Assembly: GCF_900184245.1 (NCBI RefSeq)
Contig: NZ_FXXB01000004.1
Location: forward strand, 248,001 to 312,000
From: Brachybacterium massiliense
Lineage (GTDB): Bacteria; Actinomycetota; Actinomycetes; Actinomycetales; Dermabacteraceae
DNA: 64,000 bases
Direction of reading: 5' to 3'
Shown piece after piece: positions 52,919 to 63,001 of this stretch. Position 1 is the first letter of the stretch, and each line of letters starts with the position of its first letter. A program made the translations under genes and the position numbers. The notes below the pieces were generated by a model. The model did not search any database. It was not told the origin of the DNA and saw only the letters and a list, made by a program, of their open reading frames with translations.

Positions 52919-53554
52919 TCACCGTACTGCCGGCACGGCGGACTCTTCAGGGACCTCGCGCGGTCGTAGCCGTCCCTCGAGCAGATGCACCGCGGCGGCG
53001 ACCGCGAAGAACGCCACCAGCACCACAGCCGTGGTCAGCAGCACCTGGTTCCATGACGAGGCCGTGGGATCCAGGAACTCGTACGGGTACCAGCCCGTGA
53101 TCCCACCGCGCACCCAGGTGCCCACCAGGAACGCCACCGGATACAGCTGCCACCACAGGATACGGCGCGCCTGCGGGGCACGATGCCGCCGCGCGAGGAG
53201 CCAGTCCAGCACCGCCACCACGGGCGCCAGGCGATGCAGCACGATCCCCGTCCAGCCGATGTCCCAGCGCAGCAGCTCCTCCAGCGGAGCCACCAGCAGC
53301 GCATAGATGATCCCGGTCATCGCCAGATAGAACGCGACCGCACCGCGCACGTCGTCGAACCAGGCGGGCAACCGCGGCCCTGCCACGGATCCGGCGAGGA
53401 CCAGCATCACGAACAGCAGGTTGGACTGGTTGGTGAAGTACGAGATGTTCTGCGCGAGCAGCCCGTCGCGTCCGGCGTCGATCGCATTGCTGACCAGTGC
53501 CGCGGTGATCAGCAGCGCCACCAGCACCCGCGCCACGGCGGCCGGTGCCCTCAT
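52919..53554 (-). CDS. Pr6Pr-family integral membrane protein
   Basis: A 211-residue membrane protein with six hydrophobic segments. FTNQSNLLFVMLVLAGSVAG, VLHRLAPVVAVLDWLLARRH and LYPVAFLVGTWVRGGITGWY are typical of the Pr6Pr (six-helix) family. Function unknown. The ATG overlaps the stop of the preceding dehydrogenase by ATGA, so the P450, this gene and the dehydrogenase form one leftward operon. Confidence 0.85.
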   Translation of the reverse strand: MRAPAAVARVLVALLITAALVSNAIDAGRDGLLAQNISYFTNQSNLLFVMLVLAGSVAGPRLPAWFDDVRGAVAFYLAMTGIIYALLVAPLEELLRWDIGWTGIVLHRLAPVVAVLDWLLARRHRAPQARRILWWQLYPVAFLVGTWVRGGITGWYPYEFLDPTASSWNQVLLTTAVVLVAFFAVAAAVHLLEGRLRPREVPEESAVPAVR

Positions 53555-54342
53555 GAGTCGCGCGGCCAGTCGTCCCTCACCGGGGCTCCGCCCTCGACGA
53601 TCCGCTCCTCGGCGCCCGGCAGCGAGGTCCAGGAGTCCTGAGGGCGGTACCCCAGCTCGAGCGAGGTGTTGGTCAGCGACCATCGCCGATTGGGGTTGTC
53701 GGAGATCGCGTAGTACAGGCCGAAGGCCACCTCCGCCTCGATCGCACGCACCACCACCCGGGTGCAGTCCGCGGGACTCAGCCACATCGCGCGCAGGATG
53801 TCCTCCTCGGCCGCGAGCGGATCCTCGGAGAACCAGCCGATGCGCAGATTGATCACGTCCAGGCCGTGCTCGTCGTGGTAGAAGCGTCCCAGCGACTCGC
53901 CGAACACCTTCGAGACCCCGTAGAGGGAATCTCCCCGCGGCAGCTGATCGGGGTAGACCGGCCACTGCTCGTAGCGGTCATACATCCCCATCGCGTGGTT
54001 CGAGGAGGCCAGCACCACGCGCCGCACCCCGGCCTCGCGGGCGGCCTCGAGCACGTTGCGCACCCCGATGATGTTCGCCGCCAGCACCGCATCCCAGCTC
54101 GAGTCCGGGGCGGCGGCACCGGCCATGTTCACCACCGTGTCCACCCCGTCCATCAGGGCCAGCACCTCGTCGTACTCGGACAGATCGGCGATCGCGAGAT
54201 CCACCCCCTCGGGGGCCTTGTCCGGACTGCGGCCGTGCAGCACGAGCTCGTAGTCCTCGGCCAGGGCCGTCGCCAGGTGAGAGCCGATGCCCCCGGTCGC
54301 CCCGGTGATCAGTACACGTCTGCGTGCGTTCGTCTCCGCCAT
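53551..54342 (-). CDS. NAD-dependent epimerase/dehydratase-family protein, uronate-dehydrogenase-like
   Basis: A 263-residue extended SDR: LITGATGGIGSHLATALAED (NAD binding), VVNMAGAAAPDSSWDAVLAA, ASSNHAMGMYDRYEQWPVYP, and catalytic YGVSKVFGESLGRFYHDEHG. SSNHxxG plus YGVSKxFGE is the pattern of uronate dehydrogenases, which oxidise glucuronate or galacturonate to aldarolactones. First gene of the leftward operon. Confidence 0.85.
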   Translation of the reverse strand: MAETNARRRVLITGATGGIGSHLATALAEDYELVLHGRSPDKAPEGVDLAIADLSEYDEVLALMDGVDTVVNMAGAAAPDSSWDAVLAANIIGVRNVLEAAREAGVRRVVLASSNHAMGMYDRYEQWPVYPDQLPRGDSLYGVSKVFGESLGRFYHDEHGLDVINLRIGWFSEDPLAAEEDILRAMWLSPADCTRVVVRAIEAEVAFGLYYAISDNPNRRWSLTNTSLELGYRPQDSWTSLPGAEERIVEGGAPVRDDWPRDS

Positions 54343-54409
54343 GACTCCATTATGGGACGCACGGCACGATCATGGGCCGACGGGCGGGACCTCGAGCCGA
54401 TGGGCGCGG

Positions 54410-55177
54410 TCAGGGGCCGACGGGGGAACCGCCCTCCGGATCGGGACGCTCGGGCATCGGCCGGATGTCGCCGCGCAGACGCTCCATCCGCTGATCGAGG
54501 TCCGCGGCGACGCGGGCCGCGTCATCGAGCTCCTCCTGCAGGCGTGCGGGGAGGTTCTTGCGGTACTTGTAGGAGAGCTTGTGCTCGGTGCTGGCCCAGA
54601 AGTCCATCGCGATGGTGCGCAGCTGCAGCTCCACCGGCACCATCTCCGTGTGCTGGGAGAGGTACACGGGCACCTGGACGATCAGGTGCAGCGAGCGGTA
54701 GCCGTTGGGCTTCGGGGAGGCGATGTAGTCCTTGACCGCGAGCACCTCGAGATCCTGGTGGCGGCTGAGCATCTCCGCGATCCAGTACACGTCCGAGACG
54801 AAGCTGCAGGTGATCCGGATCCCGGCGATGTCCGTGACCCTCTCGCGGATCGCGGGCAGGGTCATCTCCCCGCCCGTGCGCACGGCCTTCTCGATCAGGC
54901 TCTCGGTGGACTTCAGGCGCGAGCGGACGTGCTCGATCGGGCTGTAGTCATGGATCAGCTCGAACTCCTGACGCAGGATGTTGACCTTCGTCTCCACCTC
55001 GTCGATGCCGAACTGGTAATGCATCCGCAGCTGGACGAACTCGTCATGGAGCTGCTTCATCTGCGCGGCCAGCTGCTCCTGATCCATCCCCGGGGCGGCG
55101 AGCGCCTGCTGACGCGTCGCGACCATCTCCTGGACGCGTTCGCGCCACGGAGCGCCGTCGGGCTCAGAGGTCTGCAT
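54410..55177 (-). CDS. Small alarmone (ppGpp) synthetase, RelP/RelQ-like
   Basis: A 255-residue GTP pyrophosphokinase with only the synthetase domain, lacking the hydrolase and regulatory parts of RelA/SpoT. Motifs: PIEHVRSRLKSTESLIEKAV, VTDIAGIRITCSFVSDVYWI, KDYIASPKPNGYRSLHLIVQ, VELQLRTIAMDFWASTEHKL. N-terminal and C-terminal helices form the oligomer interface in this group. It makes (p)ppGpp or pppGpp under stress. Monocistronic. Confidence 0.9.
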   Translation of the reverse strand: MQTSEPDGAPWRERVQEMVATRQQALAAPGMDQEQLAAQMKQLHDEFVQLRMHYQFGIDEVETKVNILRQEFELIHDYSPIEHVRSRLKSTESLIEKAVRTGGEMTLPAIRERVTDIAGIRITCSFVSDVYWIAEMLSRHQDLEVLAVKDYIASPKPNGYRSLHLIVQVPVYLSQHTEMVPVELQLRTIAMDFWASTEHKLSYKYRKNLPARLQEELDDAARVAADLDQRMERLRGDIRPMPERPDPEGGSPVGP

Positions 55178-55284
55178 CGGAGGTCTCCTGGCAACGTCGG
55201 GGAACGGACCATCGGATCATCGCAGAACCGGCTGGACCCCCGGTGAGGGCCCTGGCCGATACGGTGCGCGCACACCCTCCAGGG

Positions 55285-55316
55285 AAAGAAAAAACGCCCT
55301 GTCACCAGGGCGTTTC
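55285..55316 (-). terminator. Terminator of tRNA-His
   Basis: AAACGCCCTG and CAGGGCGTTT pair around TCAC. Read leftward, the hairpin is followed by a run of T, so it is a typical intrinsic terminator just past the tRNA. Confidence 0.85.
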
Positions 55317-55320
55317 TTGG

Positions 55321-55394
55321 GGTGATCGACGGGATTTGAACCCGCGACCGCCTGGACCACAACCAGGAGCTCTACCAACTGAGCTACGACCACC
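55321..55394 (-). tRNA. tRNA-His(GTG)
   Basis: Acceptor GTGGTCG pairs with CGATCAC; the D-arm has AGCTCAGTTGGTAGAGCT; anticodon stem-loop CCTGGTTGTGGTCCAGG gives anticodon GTG; the T-arm is CGGGTTCAAATCCCG. The extra G at position -1 (base 55394) is encoded, as expected for tRNA-His. CCA is not encoded. Confidence 0.95.
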
Positions 55395-55554
55395 ATGTGC
55401 GAGGCCGGAGCCTGCAACGAGAGATCAATATACCGTGTCGCCAGGGCGCTTCCCAGCCCAGAAGGGCCTGAGGGGGTGTGAGACACATTGCATCACCCCC
55501 AGGGAGGGTCGGCGCTTCCCGCCGACCGTCGTTCGGCCGGCGGGAGGCGTGCGC

Positions 55555-56538
55555 TCACAGCAGCTCGGCGCGCAGCTGCTCGGGCGACTTCGGGGACAGC
55601 AGGCCCGGGGCCACGTCGAAGGGGGTCTTCGCCCCATGCTGGCCATCGGCCGCCATGCGGCCCGCGGCGCGGGCGTAGGCGACGATCACGCTCGCGGTGA
55701 ACTCGGGATTCGAGTCCTCCTGCAGGCGGTACTCGATCGTCTGGGTGGTGCCGGGCGAGGACTCCGCGGAACGGATCACGAAGCCGCCGTGGGGCATGCT
55801 GCGGTGATCGCGGTCGAGCTCCTCGGCGCTGAGGAAGGTCACCGTGGTCTCGAAGGGCTCGAAGTAGTGCGGCATGGTCACGATCTGCTGACGCACCGCC
55901 TCGGCGTCGGCGCCCTCGTCGAGCACCACGAAGCATTCGCGCGTGTGCTTCTCGCGGCTGCTCAGCTCGGGCCGCTCGCCGGCGCGCACGCGGTCGATGG
56001 CGTCCTGGGAGGGGATCGTGTACTGGACGGCGGCGGCGACCCCGTCGATGCGGCGCAGCGCATCGGAGTGGCCCTGGGACAGGCCCCGGCCCCAGAAGGT
56101 GTAGGTCGAGCCGGCCGGGAGGATCGATTCACCGAACACGCGGTTGATCGAGAAGAGGCCGGGATCCCAGCCGGTGGAGATGATCGCGGTGGTGCCGGCG
56201 GCGCGGGCGGCGGCGTCGACCTTCGCGAAGTGCTCGGGGATCTGGGCGTGGGTGTCGTAGCTGTCCACGACGGTGAAGCGCTGGGCGAGCTGCGGGGTCT
56301 GCTCGGGCAGATCACTCTTGGAGCCGCCGCACAGCACGAGCACGTCGATCTCGTCCTGCATCCCCTCGAGCGCGTCCATCGGATGGACGGGGGTCTGCTC
56401 ACCCACGGTGGCGACCGTGGAGGGGTCGCGGCGCGTGAACACGCCCACCAGCTCCATGTCGTCCTGGAGGGAGAGGGCGATCTCGACGCCGCGTCCCAGG
56501 TTCCCGTAGCCGACGATGCCGATGCGGAGAGAAGTCAT
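55555..56538 (-). CDS. ddh: meso-Diaminopimelate D-dehydrogenase
   Basis: A 327-residue NADPH enzyme that makes meso-diaminopimelate from tetrahydrodipicolinate in one step (lysine and peptidoglycan pathway). SLRIGIVGYGNLGRGVEIAL binds the cofactor; VLCGGSKSDLPEQTPQLAQR, STGWDPGLFSINRVFGESIL and GRGLSQGHSDALRRIDGVAA are family motifs. The ATG at 56538 follows GAGGACC. The gene fits an actinomycete with DAP in its cell wall. Confidence 0.95.
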   Translation of the reverse strand: MTSLRIGIVGYGNLGRGVEIALSLQDDMELVGVFTRRDPSTVATVGEQTPVHPMDALEGMQDEIDVLVLCGGSKSDLPEQTPQLAQRFTVVDSYDTHAQIPEHFAKVDAAARAAGTTAIISTGWDPGLFSINRVFGESILPAGSTYTFWGRGLSQGHSDALRRIDGVAAAVQYTIPSQDAIDRVRAGERPELSSREKHTRECFVVLDEGADAEAVRQQIVTMPHYFEPFETTVTFLSAEELDRDHRSMPHGGFVIRSAESSPGTTQTIEYRLQEDSNPEFTASVIVAYARAAGRMAADGQHGAKTPFDVAPGLLSPKSPEQLRAELL

Positions 56539-56567
56539 GGTCCTCGATTCTGTGCAGGGGTGGAGGG

Positions 56568-58478
56568 TCAGATGTCGCTGTCGAGCCGGTCGTCGCGCAG
56601 CGCGGCGGCGAGCGTCGGGGTCACCGGCAGGCGCGGGATGAGCGTGGCCTGCAGTGCGTGGTAGATGTCGGGCTTGCCCGGCCACGTCTTCCCCTGGGGC
56701 TCGTTGTCCGCGTCGAGCTCGTGGAACCACGAGCCGTGCTCGGGGTCCAGCAGGTAGGTGGAGATGTACTCCCACCACTGCTCGTAGCGCTCGGCCCAGA
56801 TCCGCTCACCGGTGACCTGGTGCATCACCGCCGCCGCGCCGACCGCCTCGGCCGCCACCCAGTGCATCCGCTCTGTGGTCACGGGGGAGCCGTCCCAGTC
56901 CACGGTGTACACCCAGCCCGGAGCTCCGTCGGCACCGAAGGCGGCAGCGGACTTCTCCATCAGCGCGATCGCCGATTCGAGCATCCACTCCGGTGCCTCG
57001 CCGTCGAGCGTGATCAGCGCGGCCCTGGCATGAAGCACCAGGCGCGCCCACTCGATCCAGTGACCGATGGTCGCTCCGTAGGGACGGAACTGGTGGGCGG
57101 GCTGGTCCTGGTTGTAGTCCAGCACCGGCTCCCAGTCGAGGTCGTAGTGCTCGGGCAGGGCCCAGTCGTTGAGGCGCGCGAACTCGTCGATCGCGCGAGT
57201 GGCGATGCCGACCGCGCGATCCAGCCAGCGGCGCTCTCCGGTGACGTCGGCCGCGGCCAGCAGCGCCTCGACGGTGTGCATGTTGGAGTTGATGCCGCGG
57301 TAGGGCTCGCACTCGGAGAAGGAGCGGTCGAAGCTGTCCACGCTCATCCCGGCGGACTCGTCGAAGAACTTCTCATCGAGCACCTCGAGCGCCTCGTCCA
57401 GCAGCTCCTTCGCGCCGGGGCGACCGGCCGCCAGGCCGGAGGCGGCGGCGAGCACCACGAAGGCATGGGCGTAGGCCTGCTTGGAGTCGTCGACGGCGCG
57501 TCCGCCGGCGACCGAGGAGTACCAGCCGCCGTGCTCCTGATCGCGGAACACGCCGCGCAGGGAGGCCAGGCCGTGGTCGGCGAAGCGACCGAAATCGGGA
57601 TGGCCCAGCAGGTGGCCGAGCGCGAAGCTGTGCGTCATCCGGCAGGTCAGCCACAGCTCGGAGGGCCGGGAAAGATCCGGTGCGCCCTGCTCATCGAGCC
57701 AGGCGAAGCCGCCGTCCTCGCGCACCGATTCCGCGGCGAAGTGGAGCAGCTCGAGGCTCGCGCCGTCGAGCCAGGCCCGGTGTGAGGCGCGCTCGAGCCA
57801 CGGCACGTGCGGCGCCGGCGTCGATGCCGTCTTCCCCGAGGCGGGGGCGGCGGGCTCCTCCCGCAGCTCGAAGCTGCGGGAGGCCTCCTGCGCCTGGGCG
57901 GTGGTGGGACCGGGCTCATCCACCAGGAGCACCTCGCGGTAGTACTTCAGCTCCTGGATCGACTCGCGGATATCGGCGAGCGCCCGGTGCCCGCCGTGCT
58001 TGGCGGGGATGTTGTAGTAGACGCGCGGGAACCAGCGCTTGGCCAGCTCCTTGAGGCTCGAGACGTCGATCGTGCGATAGGACAGCCAGCTCGCGAACTC
58101 GGGCACATCGCGGTCCAGGAACACGCGGTCGGTGCCCACGCTGTTCCCTGCCAGCGGCGCCTTGCCCGGCTCAGGGCAGTACTGCTTCACGTACTCCAGG
58201 CACTGCGCCTGGGCCTCCTCGAGGCTCATCCCGTCGTCGAGCTCCTCGAGCAGACCGGAGACGGTGTGCATGTTGACCACGAACGGGTCCATGCCCTTCA
58301 GCGCCTCGGCCGGCGGCTTGATGACGACGTCGACGCCGTCCCCGAGGATGTTCAGATCGGCGTCGGTGACGAGAACGGCGATCTCGACGAGCGCGTCGCG
58401 CTGCTTGTCGAGGCCGGTCATCTCGCAGTCGACCCAGATGATGCGGTCGTTGATGGCACGCGTGGAGCTGGAAGTCAC
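56568..58478 (-). CDS. Oligoribonuclease fused to an AGE-family sugar epimerase/isomerase
   Basis: A 636-residue protein joining two enzymes in one open frame. Residues 1-190 are oligoribonuclease (Orn), a DEDDh 3'-5' exonuclease for short RNAs such as pGpG: IIWVDCEMTGLDKQRDALVE with D-x-E, LAGNSVGTDRVFLDRDVPEF, and KHGGHRALADIRESIQELKY with catalytic His/Asp. After a Pro/Ala-rich linker (190-225), residues 225-630 are an alpha/alpha-barrel of the N-acylglucosamine 2-epimerase group: GGWYSSVAGGRAVDDSKQAY, ECEPYRGINSNMHTVEALLA, and GKPDIYHALQATLIPRL. Orn is normally a separate protein of about 200 residues. No stop, start or ribosome-binding site separates the parts. Confidence 0.9.
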   Translation of the reverse strand: MTSSSTRAINDRIIWVDCEMTGLDKQRDALVEIAVLVTDADLNILGDGVDVVIKPPAEALKGMDPFVVNMHTVSGLLEELDDGMSLEEAQAQCLEYVKQYCPEPGKAPLAGNSVGTDRVFLDRDVPEFASWLSYRTIDVSSLKELAKRWFPRVYYNIPAKHGGHRALADIRESIQELKYYREVLLVDEPGPTTAQAQEASRSFELREEPAAPASGKTASTPAPHVPWLERASHRAWLDGASLELLHFAAESVREDGGFAWLDEQGAPDLSRPSELWLTCRMTHSFALGHLLGHPDFGRFADHGLASLRGVFRDQEHGGWYSSVAGGRAVDDSKQAYAHAFVVLAAASGLAAGRPGAKELLDEALEVLDEKFFDESAGMSVDSFDRSFSECEPYRGINSNMHTVEALLAAADVTGERRWLDRAVGIATRAIDEFARLNDWALPEHYDLDWEPVLDYNQDQPAHQFRPYGATIGHWIEWARLVLHARAALITLDGEAPEWMLESAIALMEKSAAAFGADGAPGWVYTVDWDGSPVTTERMHWVAAEAVGAAAVMHQVTGERIWAERYEQWWEYISTYLLDPEHGSWFHELDADNEPQGKTWPGKPDIYHALQATLIPRLPVTPTLAAALRDDRLDSDI

Positions 58479-58594
58479 TGCTCAACAGTAGCGCGGACCC
58501 GGAGGCGGGGAGCGAGGAGGCGCACCCCGGGCAGTTACTCTGTGGTCACCAATACTCGTCGTCGAGTGGTCGCGAGCCACCGGAGGGCACCTCT

Positions 58595-59122
58595 GTGAAT
58601 CTGTACTTCCGTCTGCTGCTGTTCATGATCCGCGTGCGCTTCCGCAGCAGGCTGGGGATCTGGGACACCTCGCACGTCACCTTCCGGGTGAACCCCTTGG
58701 ATCTCGATCTGCAGCGGCACATGAACAACGGCCGCTATCTCAGCCTGATGGATCTGGGGCGGATGGACCTCATGCTGCGCTCCCGATTCTGGCAGCGCAT
58801 CACCGGCCAGGGCTGGTACCCGGTGGTCGCCGGGCAGACCATCACCTACCGCCGCTCCCTGCTCCTGTGGGAGAGGTTCGACCTCGCCTCGCGGGTGATC
58901 GGGCACGACGACCGCTGGATCTACATGGAGCAGGTCTTCCGGCGCGACGGGCAGGTCGTCGCCGATGCGATCGTGCGCGCCCGCTTCCTGCGCAGGACCG
59001 GCGGATCGGTGCCGGTCGACGAGCTCATCGCGCTGGTGGGCCCTCTGCCGGAGCACCTCACGCTGCCGGAATGGGTCACAGAGTGGAACGAGGGCTCCTC
59101 GCAGCACAGCAGGGAGCTCTGA
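58595..59122 (+). CDS. Hotdog-fold acyl-CoA thioesterase-like protein
   Basis: A 175-residue single-domain hotdog protein. DLDLQRHMNNGRYLSLMDLG is the 4HBT-type active-site helix region; AGQTITYRRSLLLWERFDLA and WIYMEQVFRRDGQVVADAIV are the strand core. It resembles THEM6-like and acyl-ACP thioesterases of unknown substrate. The GTG at 58595 follows GGAGG. Monocistronic and divergent from the fusion gene. Confidence 0.85.
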   Translation: MNLYFRLLLFMIRVRFRSRLGIWDTSHVTFRVNPLDLDLQRHMNNGRYLSLMDLGRMDLMLRSRFWQRITGQGWYPVVAGQTITYRRSLLLWERFDLASRVIGHDDRWIYMEQVFRRDGQVVADAIVRARFLRRTGGSVPVDELIALVGPLPEHLTLPEWVTEWNEGSSQHSREL

Positions 59123-59213
59123 ACCGCGCCGGATCCCGCGAGCCTGCTGGACGAATCCCTCCGATCCGGCGCAGCGGTGAGCGATCCTGCGCTGCGAACC
59201 TGGCTGAGCGAGT

Positions 59214-59504
59214 TCAGCGGCTCCTCGGCCGCGGCGAAGACTGCCCGGAGACTGCTCGCACGCTCCGGCTCCCGCGACGACGCAGCTCCTCGATCCCGCT
59301 GATCACCAGCAGCACCACCACCACGGCCAGCAGGATCCACTGCTCGAACACCACCGCGAGCACACCGGCGAGCAGCAGCGCCACCAGGAACACGATCTCC
59401 AGCACGCGCAGCGGCACCCCGAGCAGCCGCGCCCCGAACCGGGTGCGCGCCAGGCGCAGGAGCAGCAGCGCACCGATCGCGACGAACGTCAGGATTCTCA
59501 GCAT
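59214..59504 (-). CDS. Small membrane protein, unknown function
   Basis: A 96-residue protein: three hydrophobic segments (about 2-17, 33-52 and 53-70), then a basic tail (RRRGSRSVRAVSGQSSPRPR). RILTFVAIGALLLLRLARTR begins it. AGGAGAAGC lies ahead of the ATG at 59504. No family recognised. It is the last chromosomal gene before the tRNA-Arg island. Confidence 0.65.
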   Translation of the reverse strand: MLRILTFVAIGALLLLRLARTRFGARLLGVPLRVLEIVFLVALLLAGVLAVVFEQWILLAVVVVLLVISGIEELRRRGSRSVRAVSGQSSPRPRSR

Positions 59505-59534
59505 CTGCTTCTCCTCCTGCGGGGGTGGCTGACG

Positions 59535-59574
<40 letters not shown>

Positions 59575-59894
59575 GCGGTAGGGACTCTCGTCACCTCATC
59601 ACTGCAGGTCAGGGGCATACTGGTCGCATTCTATAACGAGGTAACCACTTGGTGTGAATCTGCAGGTGTAATACCGTAATTGCCTTCGTTACTGCTCTGC
59701 CTTCGTGGGGTTTCGACGTCGTTTTCTCGTCGTCTCTACGGTGACATACCTGCAGGTCAGACTGCAAATCGTAGTCCTCATCAGGGTCTCGGCGTGTCCC
59801 GTGAAACCTGGAGCGTCGACGTGTAGACATGAGGACGCGGCCCCCGTTGATCCCGGATTGCAGTCCGGGCGGAGGCCGCGTCGGAGATCACTTC
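59575..59894. other. AT-richer region inside the island with three CTGCAGGT boxes and a compound hairpin
   Basis: CTGCAGGT occurs in the same orientation at 59602-59609, 59660-59667 and 59750-59757, close to the att copy, as integrase arm-binding sites often do. At 59834-59882 GACGCGGCC pairs with GGCCGCGTC, with a second inner stem CCCGG/CCGGG. No convincing gene. Confidence 0.5.
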
Positions 59895-60138
59895 ATGCGC
59901 CAGAGTACGACCGGCGCGCGCGTCATCGCATCCGGGCGCGCCGCCTCCACTGACCCGCTTGTGTCCGCGCATCCGTGCGCGTCGACGCGCACGCGGGTCG
60001 ACGCGGAGCGAGTCCTCATATTCCTTCAGGTCCCTGCCGAGGGTGCTCGTGCCCTCGCCGTCCGCGACGTAGCTCTGAGCGTCGGTCTCTCGGTCCCTGC
60101 AGCCGGGCAGAGGATTCGTGACCTCCTGGGACTATCCC
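59895..60138 (+). pseudogene. Truncated winged-helix DNA-binding protein
   Basis: From about 59895 the frame reads MRQSTTGARVIASGRAASTD, then VDAERVLIFLQVPAEGARAL, AVRDVALSVGLSVPAAGQRI and RDLLGLS, a winged-helix pattern. It runs into the detached IS end at 60139 and stops shortly after (60173), so the natural C-terminus is lost. An in-frame ATG at 59829 also exists. Perhaps an excisionase-like or regulatory gene of the original element. Confidence 0.5.
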
Positions 60139-60190
60139 GGCTCATCGCATTTGAGGGTGTAGGTGGGGTCTGAAGCCTCCTGCTTCGAGG
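60139..60190 (-). mobile_element. Detached end of a second ISL3-family copy
   Basis: 52 bases beginning GGCTCATCGCATTTGAGGGT, identical to the reverse complement of the ISL3 right end at 62950-63001. The inner part still encodes the transposase C-terminus (LEAGGFRPHLHPQMR). The rest of that copy is gone, evidence of a deletion between or beside IS copies. Confidence 0.9.
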
Positions 60191-60342
60191 GGGCTTCGTC
60201 GTGTCCGGGCGGCGGTCGGCGGCCACTGTGTGGCCGTGGTCCGGCCGCCTCCTGGTAACCCGGCCGGCATCGAGTGCGAGGTCAGTGGCGTCTCTAGGGT
60301 CTGGATGTGCCACCGAGCTCGCACTCGATCGGAAGAGCGAAG

Positions 60343-61398
60343 TCAGTCGACGTCGGGTTCCTCGGCGCAGTACTTCTCCAGGGCGGCGCGGAGGACACCC
60401 CCGGAGCGGGGGGTGCGGGAGCCGAACTGGAAATCGTCGACCGCGTTCATCAGAAGGTCCCAGACGGGTACGTAGGCACCTGCGCAACCGCGCTCCCAGA
60501 CGTGAGACACGGAAGGGTGTGAGTCCTCGTCCTTCACCCGCCTGACGTTCTTCAAGAACGGGGCGTGAGGTAGATCGATACGGCCTCCTCCGTGTCTGAC
60601 GAAAGTGGTGGCGACGTACCGGGACGCACCCCGAACGTCTTCGTCCAGAACTCGATCCTCCAATGCATCCGCAGTCGGGAAGGAATCCAGTAGCCACTGC
60701 TCGACTGCATCAAGCGATTCCGGTGAGAGGTCCAGAGAGCCATATGAGACCCGGTCCGTTGTCCAGGTATCGATTGCTCTGTCGTTGTCGACGAGCCAGG
60801 CGGCCAGGGTCGGATTGATCCGTTCGGGCTCCGCCAGTGCCATGCCCCGCCATCCGGACGACAGATCGATGGGACCGGGTTCCCCGAAGCTCCGCAGGAT
60901 CGCGTCGAGGAGTTCCCGGAAGTACGTCCCGGACCGCGTCCCGGCGGCGCCGAGGACGGTCGTGTACACATCGACGGTCCCTCCGGTCGCGTATCCGGCG
61001 GGGGAATCCGCGCGGATGAAAGGCATGCCGGCGCCTTCCTCGCCACGCTCCCAGAGCTCTTCCCACTCCCAGTCACCGCCGGCGTTGCGGAGGATCGTCT
61101 CGCCCAGGTACCGGTAGGTGCCGAGGAAGACCGCCCGGACGGTCGGGTCCTCCAGGTCCGCGGGACGGTGGAGGTGCGAGAGCAGGTGCGCCTCGACGGC
61201 GGCGAGGGAATCCGGCGTGTAGGCGGGGCCCGTGAGGACACCCGCCTCGCGGAGATGCGCGACGAAGGCCTGCGTGTCCTCCCGGAGGGAGTCGGTGAAG
61301 GACAGGAAGTACGACTCCGCCTCCGCCCGCGGAGGGCGCTTCCTGACCCCGACGAGCAGACTGCCCAGGTCGTCCGCGTCCTTGTCGTCCATCGCCAT
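60343..61398 (-). CDS. Hypothetical protein, candidate immunity protein of the adjacent toxin fragment
   Basis: A 351-residue soluble acidic protein. The ATG at 61398 has GGAGGACG ahead, 16 bases after the stop of the toxin tail, the normal spacing of a toxin-immunity pair. Two halves look alike in layout: SLAAVEAHLLSHLHRPADLE with FLGTYRYLGETILRNAGGDW, and SLDAVEQWLLDSFPTADALE with VATTFVRHGGGRIDL, suggesting an internal duplication. No family name recalled. It would protect the cell against the original toxin; the toxin is now broken, so it is perhaps an orphan immunity gene. Confidence 0.6.
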   Translation of the reverse strand: MAMDDKDADDLGSLLVGVRKRPPRAEAESYFLSFTDSLREDTQAFVAHLREAGVLTGPAYTPDSLAAVEAHLLSHLHRPADLEDPTVRAVFLGTYRYLGETILRNAGGDWEWEELWERGEEGAGMPFIRADSPAGYATGGTVDVYTTVLGAAGTRSGTYFRELLDAILRSFGEPGPIDLSSGWRGMALAEPERINPTLAAWLVDNDRAIDTWTTDRVSYGSLDLSPESLDAVEQWLLDSFPTADALEDRVLDEDVRGASRYVATTFVRHGGGRIDLPHAPFLKNVRRVKDEDSHPSVSHVWERGCAGAYVPVWDLLMNAVDDFQFGSRTPRSGGVLRAALEKYCAEEPDVD

Positions 61399-61413
61399 GT
61401 TCTCGTCCTCCAC

Positions 61414-61562
61414 TCAGCCGAATTCCGTGTCGGTCACTTCGTACCGGATATTGTTGTCCCGCATCCGCTTCTTCACGCTCTCACTCGGTTCCTTCGAGAG
61501 GATGTAGGTGATCTCCCACGGTGGGTCACCGTTGGCGAGCGCGACGTCCTTCTCCCATTGTG
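61414..61562 (-). pseudogene. 3' tail of a polymorphic-toxin-like gene, cut off by the ISL3 element
   Basis: The frame from the IS end reads QWEKDVALANGDPPWEITYI, then LSKEPSESVKKRMRDNNIRY and EVTDTEFG, stopping at 61414. No start is possible on this side, because the IS removed or separated the 5' part. The tail size and position directly ahead of a likely immunity gene fit the C-terminal toxin domain of a polymorphic toxin. The activity cannot be named from this fragment. Confidence 0.55.
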
Positions 61563-63001
61563 GGCCCTTCGCAGATGAGGGGGTAGCTGCGGAGTGTGGG
61601 GTGGGCGCGTCGGTGCCGGGATAGACGTCGAGGTCTCCCGATGATGGAAGTTCTGACGCTCGCCATCTGGAAGACCTCGACGTGCCTAACGCTACCTTCG
61701 CCGACCCCGATCTGACGACCTTCACGCGCTTGGAGGAGCTCGGCCTCGTCGCTGTCGGTCAGCGGCTCACGACCGAGCGGGCGGTGCTCGAGTGTCGGCT
61801 CGCTGAGGAGGATCCGTGGTGCCGCGCCTGCGGAGCACGGGCGACCTCGCGCGGCACGATCACTCGTCGCCTCGCCCATGAACCTTTCGGCCACCGCCCC
61901 ACGACGCTGCTGGTGCGGATCCGGCGTTACCGGTGTGATCACTGCGGGAACCGGTGGCGAGAGGACACCACCGCCGCCGCCGCCGCGCCCGAGCGGGCGA
62001 AGCTCTCTCGCGGCGGGATGCGGTGGGCACTGGAAGGCCTGGTCATCGATCACCTCACGATCGCAAGGATCGCCGCCGGGCTCGGGGTTGCCTGGCACAC
62101 CGCCAACGACGCCGTCCTGGCCGAGGGCCAGCGGCTGCTGATCGATGACCCAGCCCACTTCGACGCCGTCCGCGTGATCGGTGTTGACGAGCACGTCTGG
62201 CGCCACACCCGGCGCGGCGACAAGTACGTCACCGTGATCATCGACCTCACCCCAGCCAGGGACAAGACCGGCCCGGCGAGGCTGCTGGACATGATCCCCG
62301 GCCGCTCCAAAGCAGCGTTCAAGGCCTGGCTCGAGGCCCGCCCCAAGGCATGGAAGGACCGCATCGAGGGAGTGGCGATGGACGGGTTCACCGGATACAA
62401 GACCGCCACCGGCGAGGCCCTCCCAGGCGCGGTCGCGGTCATGGATCCCTTCCACGTCGTCCGCCTCGCCGGAGACGCACTGGACGACTGCCGACGACGC
62501 GTCCAGCAGCAGCTCCACCAGCGCAGGGGCCGCAAGGACGACCCCCTCTACAAGACTCGCCGCACCCTCCACACCGGCACCAAGCTGCTGACCGACCGCC
62601 AATGCCAGCGTCTCAGCAGCCTGTTCGAGCGAGAGAAGCACGTTGCGGTCGAGGTGACCTGGGAGATCTACCAGGCGATGGTCGCCGCCTACCGAGAACC
62701 TGACCGGGCGAAAGCCAAAGCGAAGATGGACAAGCTCATCACCGCGCTGAGCAAGCGCGTCCCGGACGCCATGCCCGAGCTGGGCAAGCTCGGCCGAACA
62801 CTGACGAAACGCGCAACCGACGTGCTGGCCTTCTTCGACCGACCGGGCACCAGCAACGGTCCGACAGAGGCGATCAACGGCCGGCTCGAACACCTCCGCG
62901 GCTCCGCCCTCGGGTTCCGCAACCTCACCCACTACATCGCCCGCAGCCTCCTCGAAGCAGGAGGCTTCAGACCCCACCTACACCCTCAAATGCGATGAGC
63001 C
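61563..63001 (+). mobile_element. ISL3-family insertion sequence, complete
   Basis: Left end GGCCCTTCGCAGATGAGGGG and right end (reverse complement) GGCTCATCGCATTTGAGGGT are imperfect inverted repeats; they share TCGCA, TGAGGG and GTAG at matching places. One transposase gene fills the element. Flanking bases show no clear 8-bp target duplication, so the surroundings have probably rearranged. The right end is only 16 bases from the tRNA-Arg repeat. Confidence 0.88.
61682..62998 (+). CDS. ISL3-family transposase
   Basis: A 438-residue DDE transposase. The N-terminal zinc ribbon has CRACGARATS and CDHCGNRW. Acidic active-site residues lie in VIGVDEHVWRHTRRGDK, AVAVMDPFHVVRLAGDALDD and NGPTEAINGRLEHLRGSALG. 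GTG 61682 starts the family N-terminus. It overlaps the right inverted repeat at the C-terminus (HLHPQMR). Intact, so the element may still move. Confidence 0.95.
   Translation: MPNATFADPDLTTFTRLEELGLVAVGQRLTTERAVLECRLAEEDPWCRACGARATSRGTITRRLAHEPFGHRPTTLLVRIRRYRCDHCGNRWREDTTAAAAAPERAKLSRGGMRWALEGLVIDHLTIARIAAGLGVAWHTANDAVLAEGQRLLIDDPAHFDAVRVIGVDEHVWRHTRRGDKYVTVIIDLTPARDKTGPARLLDMIPGRSKAAFKAWLEARPKAWKDRIEGVAMDGFTGYKTATGEALPGAVAVMDPFHVVRLAGDALDDCRRRVQQQLHQRRGRKDDPLYKTRRTLHTGTKLLTDRQCQRLSSLFEREKHVAVEVTWEIYQAMVAAYREPDRAKAKAKMDKLITALSKRVPDAMPELGKLGRTLTKRATDVLAFFDRPGTSNGPTEAINGRLEHLRGSALGFRNLTHYIARSLLEAGGFRPHLHPQMR

Follow-up and report, generated by a model that had tools for sequence, protein, structure and literature searches.

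The fused gene and its two halves

The subject of this work is a gene fusion lying in a 64,000-nucleotide stretch of Brachybacterium massiliense DNA (contig NZ_FXXB01000004.1, positions 248,001 to 312,000; hereafter, the window), which falls inside one contig of an assembly of 8 contigs and 3.87 Mb. On the minus strand of the window, a frame running from 58478 to 56568 opens with GTG, stays open for 636 codons and then reaches a stop. A preliminary description of this DNA had read it as one continuous frame encoding a complete oligoribonuclease (Orn) and a complete second enzyme, and profile matches to NF003765 and PF07221 bore this out. The whole gene (56568..58478; 636 amino acids) comprises a DEDDh oligoribonuclease half (residues 10-193; 57900..58451), the tail of Orn followed by an Ala/Pro-rich linker (residues 194-225; 57804..57899, delimited from the alignment and from the predicted local distance difference test, pLDDT), and a half that we assign to the YihS-type aldose-ketose isomerases (residues 226-636; 56571..57803, with H401, H473, H607, R280 and E476 as its marked residues), all on the minus strand. 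It is the sole match to the fusion protein in its own genome (8 contigs, E <= 0.001). We recognised no description of an Orn-isomerase fusion in the open-access literature, a scope outside which most subscription journals fall.

Residues 10-193 match the oligoribonuclease model NF003765 over nearly its full length, at 247.6 bits against a curated cut-off of 106. Residues D17, E19, D117, H164 and D169, which we take to be the DEDDh catalytic residues of Orn, are identical in all 36 fused genes that we aligned, and the fusion shares all five with the closest solved Orn chains (9f7m and 7wik). The Orn chains matched in the PDB measure 180-237 residues; the fusion continues past Orn with a C-terminal linker and about 410 residues of sugar isomerase. 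Isomerase-half matches filled the fold-search results, and the structural comparison therefore covers that half. PADLOC also matched the protein to DEDDh (37.2 bits), a result that we took as a sign of the shared exonuclease fold only.

Proteins of the DHH family (RecJ or NrnA type) were found in none of seven family genomes searched, while the same search matched 13 of 14 control genomes. Since no NrnA-type protein appeared in these seven, the fusion may, judging from gene content, be a main dinucleotide-clearing enzyme; it is not certainly the sole one, because all seven also carry a PF01612 exonuclease domain, of the RNase D or NrnC type. Two distant second Orn-like matches, with 34-36% identity and stops inside the alignment, were seen elsewhere (G024:C2:1707274-1707873 and G066:C13:382648-383301).

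The second half had been described as an AGE-type (N-acylglucosamine 2-epimerase-type) epimerase. The complete alpha/alpha-barrel fold stands: residues 256-611 cover PF07221 from end to end, at 379 bits against a cut-off of 23.4, and this fold is common to N-acylglucosamine 2-epimerase and the isomerase half. The epimerase label does not. H401 and H473 are present in 36/36 fused genes and H607 in 35/36 (one row of the alignment is gapped there); PMC7762179 gives three active-site histidines as the mark of YihS-type isomerases, and the isomerase half has the YihS-type fold. The N-acylglucosamine 2-epimerase model NF052547, in turn, scored 17 bits, far below its cut-off of 600. We have thus dropped the epimerase label: on these grounds, the half belongs with the aldose-ketose isomerases of YihS type. 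Its best NCBIfam match is the D-mannose isomerase model NF051846 (structure 5x32), aligned over positions 1-400 of 401 with 477.4 bits. This is below the curated equivalog cut-off of 600 bits; the candidate substrate pair is probably D-mannose/D-fructose. With respect to YihS itself (sulfoquinovose or aldose-ketose isomerase; 2rgk, 2afa, 2zbl and 7ag4), the fusion differs by its N-terminal Orn. In the alignment, Pro603, four residues before H607, occupies the position of a Gln in the YihS chains that presumably binds the sulfonate. No sulfoquinovose gene was recognised beside the fusion, where only a few neighbours were identified.

Upstream of the gene, the hexamer TACTGT (58485..58490, minus strand), a likely -10 box on account of its conservation, ends 6 nt before the GTG start. 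In 35 of the 36 fused genes the end of a TANNNT motif lies 4-9 nt ahead of the start, at exactly 6 nt in 32 of them, compared with a mean fraction of 0.001 at shifted positions. In the 36th gene (L018) the start had been taken further upstream; inspected by eye, that gene carries TAGTCT 7 nt ahead of its next GTG. The scan flagged no Shine-Dalgarno stretch. The -10-like motif so close to the start, read against the features of actinobacterial promoters, makes this look like a leaderless promoter at the GTG codon.

Distribution of the fusion and continuity of the frame

We surveyed 47 genomes of the family, spanning 6 genera and including 38 Brachybacterium. The preliminary description had suggested looking for the same fusion in related genomes, and it is there: the frame is open across the junction in 37 of the 38 Brachybacterium genomes, single-contig assemblies included, and G065, the only genome from a second genus, g25, is likewise fused. 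A single match crosses the junction in 34 of the 37; these include G001, whose match reaches the end of its contig, and G023, which has a frameshift further on, within the isomerase half. Of the other three, G027 has two matches inside one frame of 671 amino acids with a longer linker, and in G003 and G005 the frame passes the junction before a contig end interrupts it. No match to the fusion protein was obtained in G006 (88% complete, 750 contigs). None of the Brachybacterium genomes holding both halves has them apart.

Elsewhere in the family, the Orn and isomerase genes are adjacent yet separate in 8 of the 47 genomes, belonging to four genera. Outside it, no match spanning both halves was found among the matches listed for the order (149 genomes, 138 of them outside the family); among these same matches, halves on one contig lie more than 250 kb apart and 3 of the 138 genomes lack any match. 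Of the plasmid records, 312 matched in part, and none reaches 80% coverage of the query at a single location.

These data bear on the trivial explanation, that a sequencing or assembly error joined two genes. A stop does stand at the junction in the sister genera, and separate genes with a stop in relatives were what the preliminary description would have held against the fusion. Such relatives exist (the 8 genomes above); yet with 37 of 38 genus assemblies open at the junction, single-contig ones among them, they point to the ancestral state and not to an error. We consider an error refuted by the other Brachybacterium assemblies, its remaining chance being negligible. The fusion is real, old and genus-wide, and both of its component enzymes were already known.

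We then asked whether the two halves are made as one chain. Among the 36 fused genes, the linker proper takes 12 distinct lengths, the shortest being 14 and the longest 50 residues, and is composed of 28% Ala and 19% Pro; in the predicted structure its core (residues 208-222) has a pLDDT under 50. The isomerase is nonetheless in frame with Orn in every one of the 36 genes, whatever the linker length. (That gene lengths differ by multiples of 3 is true of any open frames, and was not used as evidence.) Over 2040 codons of the linker neighbourhood, stops number 0, 15 and 18 in frames 0, +1 and +2. Both these counts and the selection estimates come from 34 genes (the 36 minus L016 and L023). The median ratio of nonsynonymous to synonymous substitution rates (dN/dS) was 0.21 in Orn and 0.25 in the isomerase, each over 561 pairs; in the tail plus linker it reached 0.68 (500 of 561 pairs, the others being saturated or too alike). 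The Orn half and the isomerase half are both under purifying selection, and the linker is short, Ala/Pro-rich, flexible and fast-evolving.

A frame that is open could still be accompanied by an isomerase made mostly apart, from an internal start. An in-frame ATG, GTG or TTG precedes the isomerase in 26 of the 35 fused genes scanned (L021 failed the motif), and 17 of these 26 possible starts fall at one site, approximately where the separate isomerase genes begin. The other 9 genes have none, and only 3 of the 35 have an internal start behind a Shine-Dalgarno-like stretch, counts that leave aside CTG and rarer starts. Internal initiation is hence unlikely as a general rule. The frame is moreover kept through the linker, which internal starts would not need, and we regard separate production as a quite improbable account of the locus. 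The clustering of the 17 sites is nevertheless a point against a strictly single chain, and weak internal initiation, or proteolysis of the linker, may release some isomerase.

Gene order and origin

In the window, a tRNA-His gene (55318..55393, minus strand), which closely follows orn in the outside loci scanned, lies about 1.2 kb beyond the fusion, behind a gene for meso-diaminopimelate dehydrogenase (55555..56538, minus strand; TIGR01921, 446.3 bits). An Rfam scan of 53000-62000 found this tRNA alone. The dehydrogenase is a neighbour outside the fusion, and a relative of it is near the fused gene in 3 of 14 Brachybacterium loci compared (L031, L032 and L036). Within the family, different genes have come to occupy the space between orn and tRNA-His.

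Outside the family, tRNA-His starts less than 300 nt past the orn match, on the same strand, at 7 of 7 loci scanned (L060-L064, L066 and L069). Within it, four genomes (G064, G066, G067 and G068) have the isomerase gene between orn and tRNA-His, on the same strand. Reading the junction DNA of the separate pairs by eye, we found stop and start overlapping as ATGA in G062 and as GTGA in G066; the isomerase starts one base past the orn stop in G064, and gaps of four bases separate the genes in G067 and G068. In G060, G061 and G063 a Shine-Dalgarno-like stretch and an ATG come about 50 bases after the stop, the ATG being in frame in G060 and G063. The family isomerases form one branch (support 97/98 in a tree of 39 sequences), so that one captured isomerase gene is the simplest account. 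Given separate neighbours within the family and orn followed by tRNA-His outside it, it is probable that the isomerase gene came in between orn and tRNA-His and that a merger of the frames followed, perhaps more than once.

The number of fusion events is less clear. A tree of the isomerases rejects the fused genes as one clade (approximately unbiased test, p-AU 0.000165; 10 rows against 13), although a long branch (0.71) leads to the Dermabacter-type isomerases, and such branches can mislead. In an rpoB tree of 20 genomes, the fused G065 stands beside the separate G060-G063, at a weakly resolved fork with Brachybacterium, where a history of two fusions and a history of one fusion and one split are equally costly. 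Only one change is forced by the well-supported branches of the Orn tree (26 rows), and the Orn half is thus compatible with a single origin. Rejected by the isomerase tree and left undecided by the other two, a single origin of the fusion was not adopted; two fusions, or one fusion with later splits, are both possible.

Two observations in this section weigh against the account of a passive merger in an ancestral gene order. First, in G060, G061, G063 and G065 the nearby tRNA-His runs in the opposite direction, and the stretch scanned in G062 yielded none; with its placement deviating in these genomes, the ancestral order rests on the four family genomes and the outside loci. Second, the fused genes take two separate positions in the isomerase tree, which could point to an advantage instead of a passive event.

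The neighbourhood of isomerase genes outside the family pointed to no clear pathway. Ten neighbours, from six of ten loci scanned, comprise a seryl-tRNA synthetase, a HAD hydrolase, an EamA transporter, four zinc-type dehydrogenases, a MerR/TipAS regulator, an ATP-binding cassette (ABC) permease and one protein without a Pfam match.

Possible roles of the tether

The preliminary description had suggested that the fusion might tie cyclic-dinucleotide turnover to carbohydrate metabolism; the dinucleotide concerned would be pGpG or pApA. In favour of such a link, Orn degrades pGpG in Pseudomonas aeruginosa, as reported in PMC6256023. We found no GGDEF domain in the 38 Brachybacterium genomes and one carrier among the 47 genomes of the family (G066, whose orn and isomerase genes are unfused); the diadenylate cyclase domain turned up in none of these 47. 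In 14 control genomes, the same searches match 8 and 11 genomes, respectively. As far as these two domain families define it (synthases of other families were not sought), this outcome removes the proposed signalling link, which we now hold to be very improbable. The family may be without both common cyclic-dinucleotide synthases.

A broader possibility is that the fusion is functional, with tethering coupling RNA recycling to sugar metabolism, by allostery or by placing Orn dimers on YihS-like hexamers. The fusion is kept in 37 of the 38 genus genomes and recurs in G065, whose gene does not join those of Brachybacterium in the isomerase tree; each of the four YihS crystal entries contains six chains, a number that is no proof of a hexamer. 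The sister genera, however, keep the two genes separate, and the linker has a dN/dS of 0.68 and a length of 14-50 residues: being so fast-evolving and variable, it suggests that no fixed geometry is selected. We find such coupling unlikely. Similarly doubtful is the idea that the fusion arose at least twice since tethering helps, whether because the isomerase half gathers several Orn dimers in a single particle or because a housekeeping gene secures it a constant supply. If true, an RNase would have turned into a scaffold tied to sugar metabolism, in genomes where no GGDEF or diadenylate cyclase domain was found. A regulatory tie between the halves is possible, if unsupported.

The option of a passive fusion, also raised in the preliminary description, fits best. 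We consider it likely that Orn and a YihS-type isomerase are made as one continuous chain behind a probably leaderless promoter, in a fusion that arose by stop loss and amounts to a passive tether. The ancestor of the family would have carried an isomerase gene between orn and tRNA-His, whose start lay near the orn stop or overlapped it. Along the Brachybacterium lineage, that orn stop would then have been lost in frame, leaving a flexible linker of 14-50 residues, and in the second genus the loss may have occurred separately, or with later splits. The Orn part would clear RNAs of 2-5 nt and the isomerase part would interconvert free aldose and ketose, the tie between them presumably consisting of physical tethering and shared expression, without regulation.

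The locus offers a clean example of bacterial gene fusion in which every stage survives in living relatives: tRNA-His next to orn, then an intervening second gene, then a stop codon that overlaps a start codon and, finally, one frame. From such a fusion, automatic annotation and domain-fusion ('Rosetta stone') methods would wrongly propose a link between RNA decay and sugar metabolism. If the tether does matter, the genus would be a natural test of what comes from joining a housekeeping RNase to a metabolic enzyme.
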